Source: a virus. Taken from it: DNA of 29,277 bases. The position numbers were made by a program, and so were the translations under genes. Positions 3,765 to 25,311 of this stretch are shown piece by piece. The notes below the pieces were generated by a model. The model did not search any database, was not told the origin of the DNA, and saw nothing but the letters and a program-made list of their open reading frames with translations. Location of the stretch: positions 1 to 29,277 of the IMG/VR virus record IMGVR_UViG_3300042861_002973. One strand, 5' to 3'. Every line of letters starts with the position of its first letter. The stretch's first letter is position 1.

Positions 3765-4469
3765 TTGGCTAAACAAAGAAACCAATCCACCGCACTATTC
3801 GATATCTCAAAACTACTCACAGTCAAACCGCTAACTGAAAATCAAACTCGCGTTTTTGATGCTTTTTTAGAAGGGTACAACTTGATACTAAGCGGAAATG
3901 CAGGAACAGGAAAATCCTTCCTAGCGCTGTATCTTGCTCTCAAATCACTACTACTGAAAAAGTACGAGAGAGTAGTTATTTTTCGTTCCACTGTGCCGAC
4001 TCGTAACCAAGGCTTCCTTAAGGGGGATTTGTCCGAAAAAGAAGCCCCGTATGAGGATTGTTACAGAGCTATTTTCGCTGAACTACTACCCACTATTCCC
4101 AATTCTTACGACACTCTAAAAAAGGAGAAGACTCTAGAGTTCAAAAGTACGTCTTTTGTAAGGGGGTTAACAATTAAAAACTCAATCGTAATTGTCGATG
4201 AATTTCAGAATATGTCGGCACATGAATTGGGGAGCGTAATTACGAGGCTTGGAGAAGGTTCAAAAATTGTGTTTTCAGGAGATTACTTACAGAGTGATTT
4301 TCGTTACGAAGATGAAAAATCTGGTGTTCTTACTTTTCTCAAAATTCTCGCCAATATGCCAGAGGACTTTAAAAGAATCGACTTTCAGATTGAGGATGTT
4401 GTAAGGTCGGGGATTGTCAAAAGATACCTTTTTTCAGAACACGAACTGCGTCAGAGAGGTCAAATCTAG
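3765..4469 (+). CDS. phoH: PhoH-like ATPase
   Basis: A 234-residue P-loop NTPase of the PhoH family, cytoplasmic. Walker A is GNAGTGKS at residues 44-51 and Walker B is IVIVDEFQN at 141-149. The sensor-type segment SGDYLQSD is near 171-178, and the family-typical VPTRNQGFLKGDLSEKEAPY lies at about 77-96. Length fits the short phage PhoH proteins. The family is widespread in phages, including cyanophages, but its exact job (RNA- or phosphate-related) remains uncertain. The start is a TTG: an in-frame TAG lies three codons upstream and the next plausible start would cut into the ATPase core. It is the last gene of a small plus-strand operon and is followed by a terminator-like hairpin. Confidence 0.93.
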   Translation: MAKQRNQSTALFDISKLLTVKPLTENQTRVFDAFLEGYNLILSGNAGTGKSFLALYLALKSLLLKKYERVVIFRSTVPTRNQGFLKGDLSEKEAPYEDCYRAIFAELLPTIPNSYDTLKKEKTLEFKSTSFVRGLTIKNSIVIVDEFQNMSAHELGSVITRLGEGSKIVFSGDYLQSDFRYEDEKSGVLTFLKILANMPEDFKRIDFQIEDVVRSGIVKRYLFSEHELRQRGQI

Positions 4470-4553: not shown

Positions 4554-5363
4554 ATGAATGAACAATGGATTTTATATCAAACGACTAACAATATTAATGG
4601 CAAGATTTATGTAGGAGTACATAAACTTGCTGATAACTATAGGTCTAAGAATTACCTTGGTAGCGGCGATAACTTACAAAAAGCTATCAAAAAATACAAG
4701 AGAGAAAATTTCACAAGGATTACTTTAGCAGAATTTAGCTGTTTTAAAGATGCTTATGCTGCTGAAGCGGGAATGGTAACTGAGGAATTTATTAAGCGCT
4801 CAGATACTTACAATATGAGTCTAGGTGGTTGGGGAGGAGTTAACCTTACTAAAGAAATGAGGGCTAAACTTATTGCCGCCAATACAGGTAGAAAAGTAAG
4901 TCCAGAAACAAGGGCTAAGATGGCAGAATCAGCTAAAGGGAATAAAAGTCATCTAGGTAAAAAACATAGTGACGAAACAAAAGCTAAGCTAAGTGCTATG
5001 TTTAAAGGTAAGACTGCTACGGAAGAAGTTAAAGCGAGGATGAGTGCTGCAAAGACAGGAGTACCTCTCAGTGAGGAACACAAAGCAAAAATTAGCGCTC
5101 GTATGATGGGAAATAAAATCACCCTCGGCAGAAATCACAGCGAAGAAGCTAAGGAAAAATTAAGTATTAGTAAGGGTACAGCTATAGTAGTAAATGACAA
5201 ATATTTTCCGTCCGCAGCTTCGGCTTCTACACATGAAAAAATAAATCATTCATCCATATTAAGAAGAGTGAGGTCTGAAGACCCTAAATTCGCAGACTAC
5301 CGATTTGCAACCGACGCGGAAAAAGCGGCACACTCACTAGAAGCGTCCCGCCAATCCACTTAA
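4554..5363 (+). CDS. GIY-YIG homing endonuclease with NUMOD3 repeats
   Basis: A 269-residue free-standing homing endonuclease. The GIY-YIG nuclease domain covers residues about 4-95: LYQTTNNINGKIYVGVH carries the two signature strands, followed by YLGSG and by AEAGMVTEEF, which supplies the likely catalytic Glu, and it ends in YNMSLGGWGG. Residues about 100-208 hold NUMOD3-type DNA-binding repeats (SPETRAKMAESAKG, HSDETKAKLSAMFKG, LSEEHKAKISARMMG, HSEEAKEKLSISKG). A C-terminal NUMOD1-like segment (KYFPSAASAS, then HSSILRRV) completes it. The N-terminal domain is about 60% identical by eye to the protein encoded at 24571-25251. It has its own promoter and terminator boundary, as expected for a mobile insertion, and its stop shares TTAA with the convergent gene. 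Confidence 0.93.
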   Translation: MNEQWILYQTTNNINGKIYVGVHKLADNYRSKNYLGSGDNLQKAIKKYKRENFTRITLAEFSCFKDAYAAEAGMVTEEFIKRSDTYNMSLGGWGGVNLTKEMRAKLIAANTGRKVSPETRAKMAESAKGNKSHLGKKHSDETKAKLSAMFKGKTATEEVKARMSAAKTGVPLSEEHKAKISARMMGNKITLGRNHSEEAKEKLSISKGTAIVVNDKYFPSAASASTHEKINHSSILRRVRSEDPKFADYRFATDAEKAAHSLEASRQST

Positions 5364-7790: not shown

Positions 7791-8162
7791 GTGAGAAAAT
7801 TATTACGCAATTGGATTGAAGGTCTATACGAAGCTACCGAATCTTGGGTAGAGCGAGAATCTCATTGCTTGACCTTAGAAGAACATAAAGAAACATACCT
7901 ATCCAACTTACCGAGTAGGATGGCAGAAAGATATGTAGCTAAGAACTACAACACTGTACCTAGGCACGAAAAGTACTCTTTTCCAGAGTTTGATTGCACT
8001 AAATGGTATGTAGTTCAAAAATCTACTGATATGGTGTGTGAATGGGGATACGATTCGATACATGAAGCTTTACGTTCGGTGTCCAGCTATCATGAGGAGT
8101 ATTACTCTGCGTGGGTACGAGATAATTTACATAATATCGATATACCAAATCGAAGATGGTAG
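7791..8162 (+). CDS. Hypothetical protein, 123 aa
   Basis: Not recognised. It is rich in Trp, Tyr, Glu and His (WIEGLYEATESWVERESHCL; YHEEYYSAWVRDNLHN) and is probably a compact soluble helical protein. The start is GTG: a strong GGAGGT (7781-7786) lies four bases upstream, and no ATG fits the ribosome site better. It is divergent from the LamG gene at 7716 with a 74-base gap. It is followed by the 258-base non-coding stretch with the GTAC boxes and could be the first gene of the same plus-strand region. No regulator or enzyme motif was seen. Confidence 0.67.
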   Translation: MRKLLRNWIEGLYEATESWVERESHCLTLEEHKETYLSNLPSRMAERYVAKNYNTVPRHEKYSFPEFDCTKWYVVQKSTDMVCEWGYDSIHEALRSVSSYHEEYYSAWVRDNLHNIDIPNRRW

Positions 8163-8225
8163 TATCTCAGTCGCCGATGGGCTGTGAAGAGGGGATGTTC
8201 AATAATAGCAATAATGTATAGGGTT

Positions 8226-8407
8226 GTACTAATGAAAAGCTCAAAGCAATTCATAGAAGGGTTTTTAGTCTTAGTACAGTTTTATATGTACTAATTGTGT
8301 ACTATCCTATACAGCTTAGAATGGCGGTTTTTCGTTACCTGATTCAGTACATTTCGGTTTAGCGTGAAAAAGTACTAATGTAAAGATGTGTTATAGTACT
8401 TTAGTAC
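8226..8407. repeat. Cluster of eight GTAC-centred boxes (GTACTAAT/TTAGTAC)
   Basis: The non-coding gap 8163-8420 contains eight GTAC cores, at 8226, 8274, 8288, 8299, 8347, 8372, 8396 and 8404. Three are GTACTAAT in direct orientation (8226, 8288, 8372), and two are TTAGTAC in the opposite orientation (8271-8277, 8401-8407). The last two form the near-palindrome GTACTTTAGTAC at 8396-8407. Fewer than one GTAC would be expected by chance in this length of AT-rich DNA. The array precedes the gene at 8421 and overlaps a promoter. It may be operator sites for a regulator or iterons of a replication origin. Confidence 0.7.
8389..8407 (+). promoter_or_regulatory. Extended -10 promoter overlapped by GTAC operator-like palindrome
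   Basis: TGTTATAGT at 8389-8397 matches an extended -10 element (TG, one base, TATAGT). The near-palindrome GTACTTTAGTAC begins inside it, at 8396. The gene's ATG is at 8421, so the transcript leader would be short. A protein bound to the GTAC boxes would block this promoter. No convincing -35 was found. Confidence 0.45.
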
Positions 8408-8420
8408 GTTAAATAACCCT

Positions 8421-9128
8421 ATGTCAAAAATAACCACTACATTAGCTAAAAGACCTCCAGATGTGGATATGTTAGTTGCTGTACTCCAAGAGTCTACACA
8501 AACCTCAGAAGCTACAAGACAGGCAGCTACAGACCTGATTGCATATTCATGTAGTATGCAACAACAGATAAATAGAAAACTTGATACATTAATAAATACT
8601 CCAAGAGTTACAACCGCAGCGCTTTCCATGTGCTTTAACTCAGACCCAGAAATTTTAGAAGGTTTTACAGTTGAAGAAGTTGTAGACGAAAAGAAAAAAG
8701 ATAAGGTATGGAGAATTTTCTATAATGGTTCAAGTAGCTCCTCTGAGATAACAAAAGCTTACAATTCACTAAGACGTAAACTACTTAGACGTTTTGGTTT
8801 GGCTGAAATAGACTTTAAAATGCTCTCGGAGTCTATTATTCAAGCTTATCATTGGAATGAAGATGAAATTATCGATGTAGATAACGTTCTGCTAGATACA
8901 GCTATCGTAGAAACTGCGTACAATATCGACAAAAAATTCACTATCCCACAACTAAAACAAAAATTACCGAATATCAATAAGAAGACAAAAGATATTGAAG
9001 ATTTGCTTATAAATAACGGTTGGGAGTATGTACAATACAAAAATTCTAGGGTAAAGTATTTCTTTAAAGAATCCGTACCGCAAATAGCACCAACAAAAGT
9101 ATATCTACTAGAGCAAGAATATGACTAA
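8421..9128 (+). CDS. Uncharacterised protein with possible winged-helix C-terminus, 235 aa
   Basis: No family recognised. Residues 1-60 are helical and Gln/Thr-rich (EATRQAATDLIAYSCSMQQQ). Residues 65-135 contain a charged segment (EEVVDEKKKDKVWRIFYNG) and a basic helix (YNSLRRKLLRRFG). Residues about 172-215 (FTIPQLKQKLPNINKKTKD, LLINNGWEYVQYKNSRVKYF) have the pattern of a winged-helix domain: a helix, a second helix, then a beta-wing rich in aromatic and basic residues. Together with the GTAC box array directly upstream, a DNA-binding regulator or replication protein is plausible. This is inference. The 3' end overlaps the next gene by 8 bases. Three plus-strand genes (8421, 9121, 9468) follow as a coupled operon. 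Confidence 0.72.
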   Translation: MSKITTTLAKRPPDVDMLVAVLQESTQTSEATRQAATDLIAYSCSMQQQINRKLDTLINTPRVTTAALSMCFNSDPEILEGFTVEEVVDEKKKDKVWRIFYNGSSSSSEITKAYNSLRRKLLRRFGLAEIDFKMLSESIIQAYHWNEDEIIDVDNVLLDTAIVETAYNIDKKFTIPQLKQKLPNINKKTKDIEDLLINNGWEYVQYKNSRVKYFFKESVPQIAPTKVYLLEQEYD

Positions 9129-9471
9129 CAAAGTACTCACGAACTTCCGTGACCACCCCTCACTTCGCTTCGATGACCCTAAATCTGTCTTCAAAATCGA
9201 CGACAAAGTGTATCTCATCAGTGAAGGTGTTGTGCGCCAAATTCTCCCTCAGAGTGTACAACTAACTAACATTGGTGAACCTTACCGTAATTTAGTGCGA
9301 CTCAACTATTTCTTTGCTGCTGAAGCACATCTTTTTGATTTTACTGATGTACTTAACGAACAGCATCAATTGTGTATCGACTTTGCCCCAGAACATGAAA
9401 AAACTCTGAGGCAACTTATCAACGAGCCTAAAACCCTAATGGAGTCATTGGACAAAGCAGGATTACTATGA
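9121..9471 (+). CDS. Hypothetical protein, 116 aa
   Basis: Not recognised. A soluble protein with a beta-rich first half (SVFKIDDKVYLISEGVVRQI) and a helical acidic second half (PEHEKTLRQLINEPKTLMES). It overlaps the upstream 235-residue protein gene by 8 bases and shares ATGA with the downstream gene, so it is translated from the same operon. No motif suggests a reaction. Its placement with the GTAC-array gene suggests a partner or accessory function, but the sequence does not show what it is. Confidence 0.67.
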   Translation: MTNKVLTNFRDHPSLRFDDPKSVFKIDDKVYLISEGVVRQILPQSVQLTNIGEPYRNLVRLNYFFAAEAHLFDFTDVLNEQHQLCIDFAPEHEKTLRQLINEPKTLMESLDKAGLL

Positions 9472-9695
9472 CCTACACTATTCGCATCACAAGCATCTCT
9501 AGGCAACCCCAGCCAGCATTAAGCCACCTGACCTTCGATAAGGCTCTACGTGGCTATATTGACCACACTGAAGACCCTATTCAATATATGGCATTGCTAA
9601 TAAAGAATACTAACAATGCCTTGATTGTGGACTATATATCTACATTCCCTATTGAAGAGATTGGACTAACTATTTACGATATGCATCCAGACTAA
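9468..9695 (+). CDS. Hypothetical protein, 75 aa
   Basis: Not recognised. A small soluble protein starting MTYTIRITSISRQPQPALSH and ending EIGLTIYDMHPD, with one central predicted helix (PIQYMALLIKNTNN). Start and upstream stop overlap as ATGA, indicating translational coupling. It closes the 8421-9695 operon. Its stop shares CTAA with the stop of the convergent RlpA-like gene. Confidence 0.62.
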   Translation: MTYTIRITSISRQPQPALSHLTFDKALRGYIDHTEDPIQYMALLIKNTNNALIVDYISTFPIEEIGLTIYDMHPD

Positions 9696-10084
9696 AGCCG
9701 ACAAACCTGTACATCTAGCACTCCGCTATCCAAATTCCCGATAGCATCGAACGCAGCTTGCGACAAATCGATGTTATCGCCAAAGTCACCCGTATCGTTA
9801 GCGTAAACCTCCACAGATGCGCCTGTACGCTCATTAGTGACTCTGTAGCTACCGAAACCTCTCCAACTAGCTATTGCGGCTGTGTAGCCCGAATTACTGA
9901 ATGTTTCACCATTTGCAGTTTGTTTGCCTTCGTAGGCGGAATGATAGAAAGTGGCAGTGGCATTGAAGCATTCAGCTTGGGCGTTTGCAGGGCTTGAAAC
10001 TATTGCTAGTAGTGCCAAACTTGCTGCTGAAATATGTTTAAATAGCAAATCGTGATTCCTTTTCTTTATTTCGTAAACTACCAT
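9692..10084 (-). CDS. Exported RlpA-like double-psi beta-barrel protein
   Basis: A 130-residue secreted protein with one RlpA-type double-psi beta-barrel. A signal peptide is clear (FKHISAASLALLAIVSSPAN, ending NAQA before ECFN). The barrel covers residues about 40-130: ATFYHSAYEGKQTANGETFS matches the family's A-x-Y-x-G-x-x-T-A-N-G-E opening, SYRVTNERTGASVEVYANDT and GDNIDLSQAAFDAIG match the core and the ID-L-S-x-A-A segment with its key Asp. The usual AHR after the TAA segment is missing, so lytic transglycosylase activity may be altered. The first ATG is at 10084; a TTG at 10048 behind AAAAGGA would give a shorter, more classical signal peptide. Role inferred: peptidoglycan or envelope interaction during infection, lysis or superinfection exclusion. 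Confidence 0.85.
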   Translation of the reverse strand: MVVYEIKKRNHDLLFKHISAASLALLAIVSSPANAQAECFNATATFYHSAYEGKQTANGETFSNSGYTAAIASWRGFGSYRVTNERTGASVEVYANDTGDFGDNIDLSQAAFDAIGNLDSGVLDVQVCRL

Positions 10085-14130: not shown

Positions 14131-14610
14131 CTATAATTTTACACTTGTTTTGTAGATATGGCACAGAATACAAGCTGCGGCATCTGCACAATGATTTTCC
14201 TTATAATCAAATTTCCTATCTGGAAATACTTTTTCAACCGCATCTATTACGTTTTGCTTATTAGAGCCTCCAAAATGAGCTACTGCTTTTTTTACTTCGG
14301 TTGGCATATAAGAAAATTCTTCTAATCCGTACTTATTTGCAAGATAGCGCGTTACACCTATCGATTGGTTAAGTTTTGCTCCAATATCCCCCTTCAGCAC
14401 AGGATTTTCATAAATATAAGCCGTCGGTTTGTATTCTTTTACTATTTTCTTAAAATGGTCGGCTATACTTGCAAGGTTTTGTGGTAAAGTGTCTTTTTTG
14501 TCTGTATAGAAATTTTCTGCATAGAGCAGTTGCAATTTTTCTTTTTCTGCACTTACAATTGCGAAACCACTTGACCTGTAGCCGACATCGTTTCCTAGAT
14601 AAATAGTCAT
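14131..14610 (-). CDS. RuvC-like Holliday junction resolvase
   Basis: A 159-residue RNase H-fold nuclease resembling RuvC, which cuts branched DNA during recombination or before packaging. The N-terminal strand YLGNDVGYRSSGFAI carries the first catalytic Asp (D8, in place of GIDPG). YIYENP supplies Glu68. GGSNKQNVIDAVEKVF (from about residue 114) is the RuvC-like G-x-K-x-x-V helix. ENHCADAAACILCH ends with the C-terminal acidic site (D143). Length fits RuvC. It starts with ATG, 34 bases from the divergent lectin-like gene at 14645. It is flanked by virion genes, an odd place for a replication or recombination gene. RuvC was not confirmed by search. Confidence 0.85.
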   Translation of the reverse strand: MTIYLGNDVGYRSSGFAIVSAEKEKLQLLYAENFYTDKKDTLPQNLASIADHFKKIVKEYKPTAYIYENPVLKGDIGAKLNQSIGVTRYLANKYGLEEFSYMPTEVKKAVAHFGGSNKQNVIDAVEKVFPDRKFDYKENHCADAAACILCHIYKTSVKL

Positions 14611-24570: not shown

Positions 24571-25251
24571 CTATTGTACCTCACCAGAAGCATGGACTAG
24601 TTTTTCCGATTCAGTAGCAAGTCTCCACTCAACCCATTTTGGATTATTAGATTTAACTCTATTTATTAAAGTAGATATATACACATTTTCGTTTTTTGCT
24701 GCAAAGTTTTTTGAAGAATAGTACGCTCCATTTATTACAACGGGAAGACTTAGATGAGTAGTAGCTGCTCGTTTGTTGGCTTTAGTTTTTTCGCTGTGAG
24801 GAGGAAGCTTTTTACCTTTATGTGCAGCCCCAATCTTTGCTTTAGTTTCCTCTGAAGTGACCTTACCTTTATTAAAAGCGCTGATTTTTGCTCTGGCTTC
24901 TGCGCCATGTGTTTTTCCTTTGTGTGATTCGCTGAGTTTAGCTTTCATCTCTTTTGTAAAATTGACTCCCCCTCTACCTCCAAGACATATATTATAGGTA
25001 TCTTCACGGTCAACAAAAGCTTGGTTTACTAGCTCGGCTTCTGCTTTATAAACGTCCTCGCAACAACTAAACTCTGCTAAAGTCTTTCTCGCAAAGTTCT
25101 TTGTGCCATATTTTTTAATGGCTGCTCTTAACCTGTCGCCACTACCCAAATACTGTCTGGAACGTGGAGTGTCAGCAACTTTATGCACTCCCACGTAAAT
25201 TTTAGAATTGCAAACGTTCGTCGTCTGATACAAAATCCAAGTCTCAGCCAT
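24571..25251 (-). CDS. GIY-YIG homing endonuclease with NUMOD3 repeats (second copy)
   Basis: A paralogue of the endonuclease at 4554. The nuclease domain (WILYQTTN, KIYVGVHKVAD, YLGSG, KAEAELV with the likely catalytic Glu, then YNICLGGRGG) is about 60% identical by eye to the other copy. It has fewer NUMOD3 repeats (AEARAKISAFNKGKV, SEETKAKIGAAHKGKK, then SEKTKANKRAA) and a NUMOD1-like C-terminus (GAYYSSKNFAAKNENVYIST). The start at 25251 (MAETW) aligns with MNEQW of the paralogue; an upstream in-frame ATG at 25272 would add seven residues. It lies between portal and a ribbon-helix-helix gene, consistent with a mobile insertion. Confidence 0.92.
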   Translation of the reverse strand: MAETWILYQTTNVCNSKIYVGVHKVADTPRSRQYLGSGDRLRAAIKKYGTKNFARKTLAEFSCCEDVYKAEAELVNQAFVDREDTYNICLGGRGGVNFTKEMKAKLSESHKGKTHGAEARAKISAFNKGKVTSEETKAKIGAAHKGKKLPPHSEKTKANKRAATTHLSLPVVINGAYYSSKNFAAKNENVYISTLINRVKSNNPKWVEWRLATESEKLVHASGEVQ

Positions 25252-25311
25252 TGCACATAACCATCCTTTCATGTATAATAAATACAGTATAACATATAAA
25301 AAACATAAACA

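Follow-up and report, generated by a model that had tools for sequence, protein, structure and literature searches.

An array of GTAC boxes at the predicted promoter of a phage gene and the exchangeable regulator cassette to which it appears to belong

What role does a dense array of GTAC boxes play upstream of an unannotated gene in a cyanophage? The window, by which we mean the whole 29,277-base stretch of record IMGVR_UViG_3300042861_002973, is part of a cyanophage genome, and its relatives include the Pseudanabaena phages PA-SR01 and Pam2. Its closest relative is the 147.8-kb record IMGVR_UViG_3300031787_000016 (G001), which holds a counterpart (88%) of the 235-amino-acid protein encoded behind the array; PA-SR01 and Pam2 hold distant relatives of it (27–31%). 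The window also carries a PhoH-like gene (3765–4469, plus strand), a RuvC-like gene (14131–14610, minus strand), and an RlpA-like gene (9692–10084, minus strand) named from the Pam2 annotation at the same position. A preliminary description had reported eight GTAC cores in 182 bases, ending 13 bases before the ATG at 8421, and both statements hold. The cores start at 8226, 8274, 8288, 8299, 8347, 8372, 8396, and 8404 (8226–8407) and form the densest GTAC stretch of the window, while the best 182-bp stretch in 500 dinucleotide shuffles of the window contains no more than six; 5,000 shuffles of the local 258 bp likewise reach six at most. The longer word GTACTAA occurs five times in the array and nowhere in the rest of the window's noncoding DNA. 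With one mismatch allowed, GTACTAAT shows no window-wide enrichment (29 found vs. 33 expected), so the signal of the array is one of local clustering.

How are the boxes placed relative to the promoter? Boxes 1 (8226–8229, offset −195 from the ATG), 3 (8288–8291, −133), and 6 (8372–8375, −49) stand on the plus strand in the GTACTAAT orientation, as does box 4 (8299–8302, −122), which reads GTACTA. On the minus strand are box 2 (8274–8277, −147), in the TTAGTAC orientation, and box 8 (TTTAGTAC; 8404–8407, −17). Box 5 (CAGTACATTT; 8347–8350, −74) and box 7 (8396–8399, −25) are given no strand. Box 6 occupies the −35 position, box 7 overlaps the −10, and box 8 sits at the expected transcription start; the repeated sites thus overlap the predicted promoter of the regulator's own gene. 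An overlap with an extended −10 had been proposed earlier, and TGTTATAGT (8389–8397, plus strand) fits that element through the pattern TGnTAnnnT, although a simple sigma-70 scan does not list it. The same pattern is found at −29 to −44 from the ATG in 24 of the 28 members of the gene family introduced below. In G001, all eight GTACs are kept at identical distances from the ATG, with 32 of 32 core bases identical, and the boxes with their 2-bp flanks are 97% identical between the two phages vs. 60% for the rest of the 205 bp (Fisher p = 3e-9). At the level of sequence, then, both the array and its conservation are firm.

Could the boxes belong to the host rather than to the phage? The stretch AGTACTTTAGTACG (8395–8408) matches exactly the Nostoc LexA consensus, RGTACNNNDGTWCB (PMC3091678), and might be read as a cyanobacterial LexA (SOS) box through which a host repressor controls the gene. 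It is, however, the sole exact consensus match in the window and spans two of the eight boxes, its last position is broken in G001, and no match lies upstream of any other family member. As boxes 1 to 6 and the words used by other members would also be left unexplained, we consider control by host LexA highly improbable.

What kind of protein is encoded downstream? The 235-residue product of the gene at 8421–9128 (plus strand) belongs to an unannotated family, for which an iterated profile search of 12 phage records returned 28 full-length members (26 once near-identical contigs are removed). Four members each occur in G004, G006, and the 116-kb record G008, three each in PA-SR01, Pam2, and G001, and two in G007, the remainder lying on fragments. 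Every full-length relative has three or four divergent paralogues. The family divides into about 13 subtypes whose mutual identity is mostly 15–60%. The regulator sequence gave nothing significant in Pfam, PHROG, or the PDB, and the family alignment, used to search prokaryote species genomes, found no relative. Folding from the single sequence was unusable (pLDDT 43), while a 15-row alignment gave a model with a mean pLDDT of 73. Its residues 151–218 (8871–9074, plus strand) form a predicted winged-helix domain that resembles the winged helices of Fur/PerR/Zur and MarR proteins, in line with the winged-helix-like C terminus suggested from the sequence earlier; the similarity (Z up to 8.4; 2.3 Å over 66 residues) points to a common fold only, being little above the level of a common arrangement. 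Matches to the full model are weak: among Foldseek hits to the whole model, none in the PDB falls below 1e-3, and the two in BFVD that do are unnamed proteins. The N-terminal half has no assignment. Two short proteins (G002:27046–27420 and G006:134579–134992) match only that half of the regulator profile (E values 1e-10 and 7e-8) and are possibly coiled-coil proteins or true relatives of an N-terminal domain.

Is the array an operator or an origin of replication? The preliminary description had left both readings standing, as an autoregulated operator array or an iteron origin. In an iteron-type origin, the protein would be an initiator, the boxes would be iterons at which the DNA opens, and the overlap with the promoter would reflect secondary autoregulation. 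Cognate repeats beside a gene for a winged-helix protein are indeed known from plasmid Rep systems, and the flank is AT rich (67% AT). Yet the spacings between boxes (48, 14, 11, 48, 25, 24, and 8) are irregular and their orientations mixed, unlike regularly spaced direct repeats. In every full-length relative there are three or four such loci. In the window, the locus lies among a group of small genes flanked by large ones on the opposite strand. In PA-SR01, Pam2, and G001, the cumulative GC skew, a weak line of evidence, reaches no extremum at any of the loci. An iteron origin is therefore unlikely and, like the LexA box, less likely than operators for autorepression. The operator half of the earlier proposal is well supported, because the boxes move together with the gene, lie across its predicted promoter, and differ from one protein subtype to the next, as described below.

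Do related phages use the same boxes? A search of their intergenic regions for GTACTAAT, suggested at the outset, succeeded for the close relative only; in more distant relatives that position is taken by other boxes, and this argues more strongly for cognate protein–DNA pairs than a shared motif would. Most family members have a repeat of their own, usually near the extended −10, and this upstream word differs by protein subtype: GTACTAA in the window and G001; TGTACAA at 46 kb in PA-SR01 and in G002 (the PA-SR01 array word being TTGTACAAG); CTTACAA at 78 kb in Pam2 and in G003 (the Pam2 array word being CTTACAAAG); TTAGCA in G007 and G008; TAGCAAA at 122 kb in G004; and ACCATAA and GTACA at 20 kb and 6.5 kb, respectively, in G008. 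TTAGCAA also stands among these words. Repeated 7-mers in the upstream 230 bp exceed shuffles in 8 of 13 subtypes (p <= 0.005), while control intergenic regions reached p < 0.02 in 2 of 60 cases; exact repeats were not significant in the other five (MNITK, MQIES, MSIEPK, KSANPS, and G006_55). The words track protein subtype and not genomic position: a subtype that recurs at a second locus retains its array there, and where one locus carries different subtypes, their arrays differ. This change of box with protein is evident in the sequences themselves, although box similarity and winged-helix similarity were not significantly related across subtypes (Mantel r = 0.10, p = 0.18). The boxes are also nearly confined to their own promoter; TTGTACA in PA-SR01, for example, occurs six times in the array vs. 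once in the other ~22 kb of noncoding DNA. No genome-wide regulon was seen for the GTAC or TTGTACA types, and a GTAC cluster at G001:101984 lies inside a coding sequence.

How far does the unit extend beyond the array? The array coordinates given in the preliminary description stand, but the functional and evolutionary unit appears to be wider, running from 8166 to 9128 (plus strand) and comprising a boundary element, the promoter/operator array, and the regulator gene. The window is collinear with G001 (around the cassette, with G001:~3.7–10 kb) except at 8166–9132. The G001 counterpart of the window's cassette (G001:44959–45922) lies ~38 kb away from the expected position, where G001 instead has a different regulator subtype behind its own element. 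The flanks assign the regulators to four loci (A to D), the window representing locus A, at which at least six subtypes occur among nine records with the same neighbours on either side. We compared seven pairs with the same subtype at different loci and seven with different subtypes at the same locus. In the former, three of the seven pairs have homology starting no more than 2 bp from the first base of the element (the others begin 21 to 67 bp inside the element or beyond). At the other end, homology stops no more than 15 bp from the stop codon in six pairs, and in the seventh it takes in the start of the next gene. In the latter, homology lies outside the cassette, mostly giving out no more than ~50 bp past the first base of the element and picking up again near the stop codon or beyond it. 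In one of these pairs (G006/G004, locus B) homology stops already before the element, and at locus C the pair G004/G006 has an additional 152-bp match because the winged helix is shared. On these sequence comparisons, the exchange unit reaches from the element through the stop codon, and its edges, too, are shown by the sequence.

What marks the left edge? The element CTCAGTCGCCGATGGGCTGTGAAG (8166–8189, plus strand; consensus CTCAnnCGCCGnnnGGCT) directly follows the preceding gene (7791–8162, plus strand), which is specific to the locus; upstream homology extends among loci with different regulators. The relaxed pattern CTCAnnCGCCGnnnGGCT has 28 matches in 12 records, 27 of them up to ~370 bp 5′ of a family member's open frame and on the same strand, while shuffles of three genomes gave 0, 0, 1, 0, and 0 matches. 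Five of the 28 regulators have no such element. As an independent test, we scanned IMG/VR at the DNA level with a short core pattern; most other matches were unrelated, but two loci (L107 and L115) proved to have a divergent family member immediately behind the element. The 28th match, at 106,943 in G001, precedes a remnant: in G001:106917–107080 (L054) the element is followed immediately by a 46-residue winged-helix fragment closest to the regulator at G008:20417, a decayed cassette at locus C. Read as RNA, the element shows no clear conserved structure, a 3-bp GCC/GGC hairpin being all that recurs.

Might the cassettes serve to distinguish self from competitor? In a self-recognition or interference module resembling BstA–aba, the protein would act against the DNA of competing phages while the cognate array marks or titrates for self-immunity. 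Protein-specific cognate DNA beside the gene, together with mosaic variants, recalls BstA and its aba element (PMC8585504), and each genome carries several mutually different cassettes, the same subtype never occurring twice. Yet a third of shuffles are likewise free of duplicates (P of zero duplicates 0.33), so the avoidance is not significant; no sequence link to BstA or KilA-N emerged, Pfam giving no KilA-N match in the regulators scanned; and the boxes lie on a promoter, unlike aba. Such a function is distinctly unlikely.

Which genes accompany the regulator? The next gene (9121–9471, plus strand), whose start overlaps the regulator stop (9121–9128), is locus specific and outside the cassette: its relatives follow several different regulator subtypes at locus A. 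It matches the region of the Pam2 genome with a gene annotated by its depositors as a "putative anti-CRISPR protein." Genes after the regulator are probably cotranscribed with it. At several other cassettes the next gene encodes a T5orf172/MUG113 protein (Pfam; GIY-YIG superfamily), a type of gene that is absent from the window; two free-standing GIY-YIG/NUMOD3 homing endonuclease genes (Pfam NUMOD3) lie elsewhere in the window, at 4554–5363 (plus) and 24571–25272 (minus). In G003 (8981–9517), G004/G009 (G004:122788–123321), and G006 (118843–119355), the T5orf172/MUG113 domain is fused to a winged helix of the family whose subtype is unlike that of the adjacent regulator. In G004 the fused winged helix is 91–96% identical to the PA-SR01 locus-B type, in G006 it is closest to the G004 locus-C type, and in G003 (locus D) it is KSANP/KYANP-like; in all three, it is of a subtype, or a close relative of a subtype, that occupies the same locus in sibling phages. 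These fusions may be relics of cassette insertion into an older regulator, or cases of domain capture. A more elaborate possibility, which we regard as doubtful, is allele replacement, in which a GIY-YIG-type protein that comes in with a new regulator takes over the winged helix of the displaced regulator and binds, perhaps cuts, the old-allele arrays of rivals, driving turnover at the four loci. Could such a protein, with the same kind of winged helix, also be what binds the boxes, as its target or operator? The three fusions do adjoin cassettes with mismatched subtypes, but none of the fusions found has the winged-helix subtype of the window, the array moves with its regulator, and that regulator needs no fusion; binding by another phage protein is very unlikely.

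We therefore favour as probable the reading in which the GTAC boxes are a multisite operator of the downstream regulator, serving autorepression, within a unit exchanged as a block among the four loci. The C-terminal winged helix would recognise a word built on GTAC(TAAT); bound copies would lie across the −35 region, the extended −10, and the start site and would keep down transcription of the regulator as well as of the small genes behind it. Recombination would exchange element, promoter/operators, and regulator together, so that each protein keeps its own operators, and the benefit would be that accessory genes can be expressed at tuned levels with no crosstalk between cassettes that share a genome. 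Binding, repression as the sign of regulation, and this benefit are what we infer; activation, or a function outside transcription, would leave the same traces in the sequence. Most likely, then, the boxes are the switch of the gene behind them, and the two together make up a cassette, one of about a dozen that carry DNA code words of their own and that these phages swap among four fixed genomic positions.

Why would such cassettes matter? We found no description of them in the literature searched, which is limited evidence of novelty; the PA-SR01 paper reports a T5orf172 gene, and the words "repeat," "repressor," "promoter," and "transcription" are absent from its text. The family appears undescribed and offers about a dozen candidate cognate protein–operator pairs exchanged as plug-in units that share a conserved 18–24 nt boundary element. 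These are candidate orthogonal repressor/promoter pairs, likely workable in cyanobacteria. The cassettes could also serve as a marker by which to find accessory (and possibly counter-defence) operons in phages of this group, and they provide a case in which modular recombination of large phages at a defined sequence can be tested.

How do the cassettes compare with known systems? Some phage regulators are built by shuffling of BRO-N, KilA-N, and T5orf172 domains, and here too T5orf172/MUG113 is joined to an exchangeable, predicted DNA-binding domain, but neither the winged helix nor the regulator family has a significant Pfam or PHROG match. As with BstA–aba, every variant of the protein is paired with a cognate DNA next to its gene; here, however, the array lies on the promoter, several cassettes share one phage genome, and the system is not a prophage one. 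By analogy, the proposed autorepression resembles that of the Aca regulators and the I-TevI operator. The operator of I-TevI, through which this T4 GIY-YIG endonuclease represses itself (PMC2988022), likewise overlaps the promoter of a mobile phage gene, and GIY-YIG-type genes adjoin several cassette loci; the regulator here differs in having no recognised nuclease domain and a many-box array, and the moving unit is promoter plus regulator. Aca2 and Aca10 are among the anti-CRISPR-associated phage autorepressors (PMC8434428, PMC9410881, PMC9410906). The likeness lies in a phage DNA-binding protein (predicted here) in an operon with small accessory genes, and in cognate repeats at a shared promoter with negative autoregulation (also predicted here); the match of the next gene at locus A to the Pam2 "putative anti-CRISPR" gene adds to it. 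The cassettes stand apart in that the regulator comes first in its operon, has 210–240 residues and a predicted C-terminal winged helix in place of a compact HTH, faces up to eight boxes, and has paralogous cassettes that exchange among loci.
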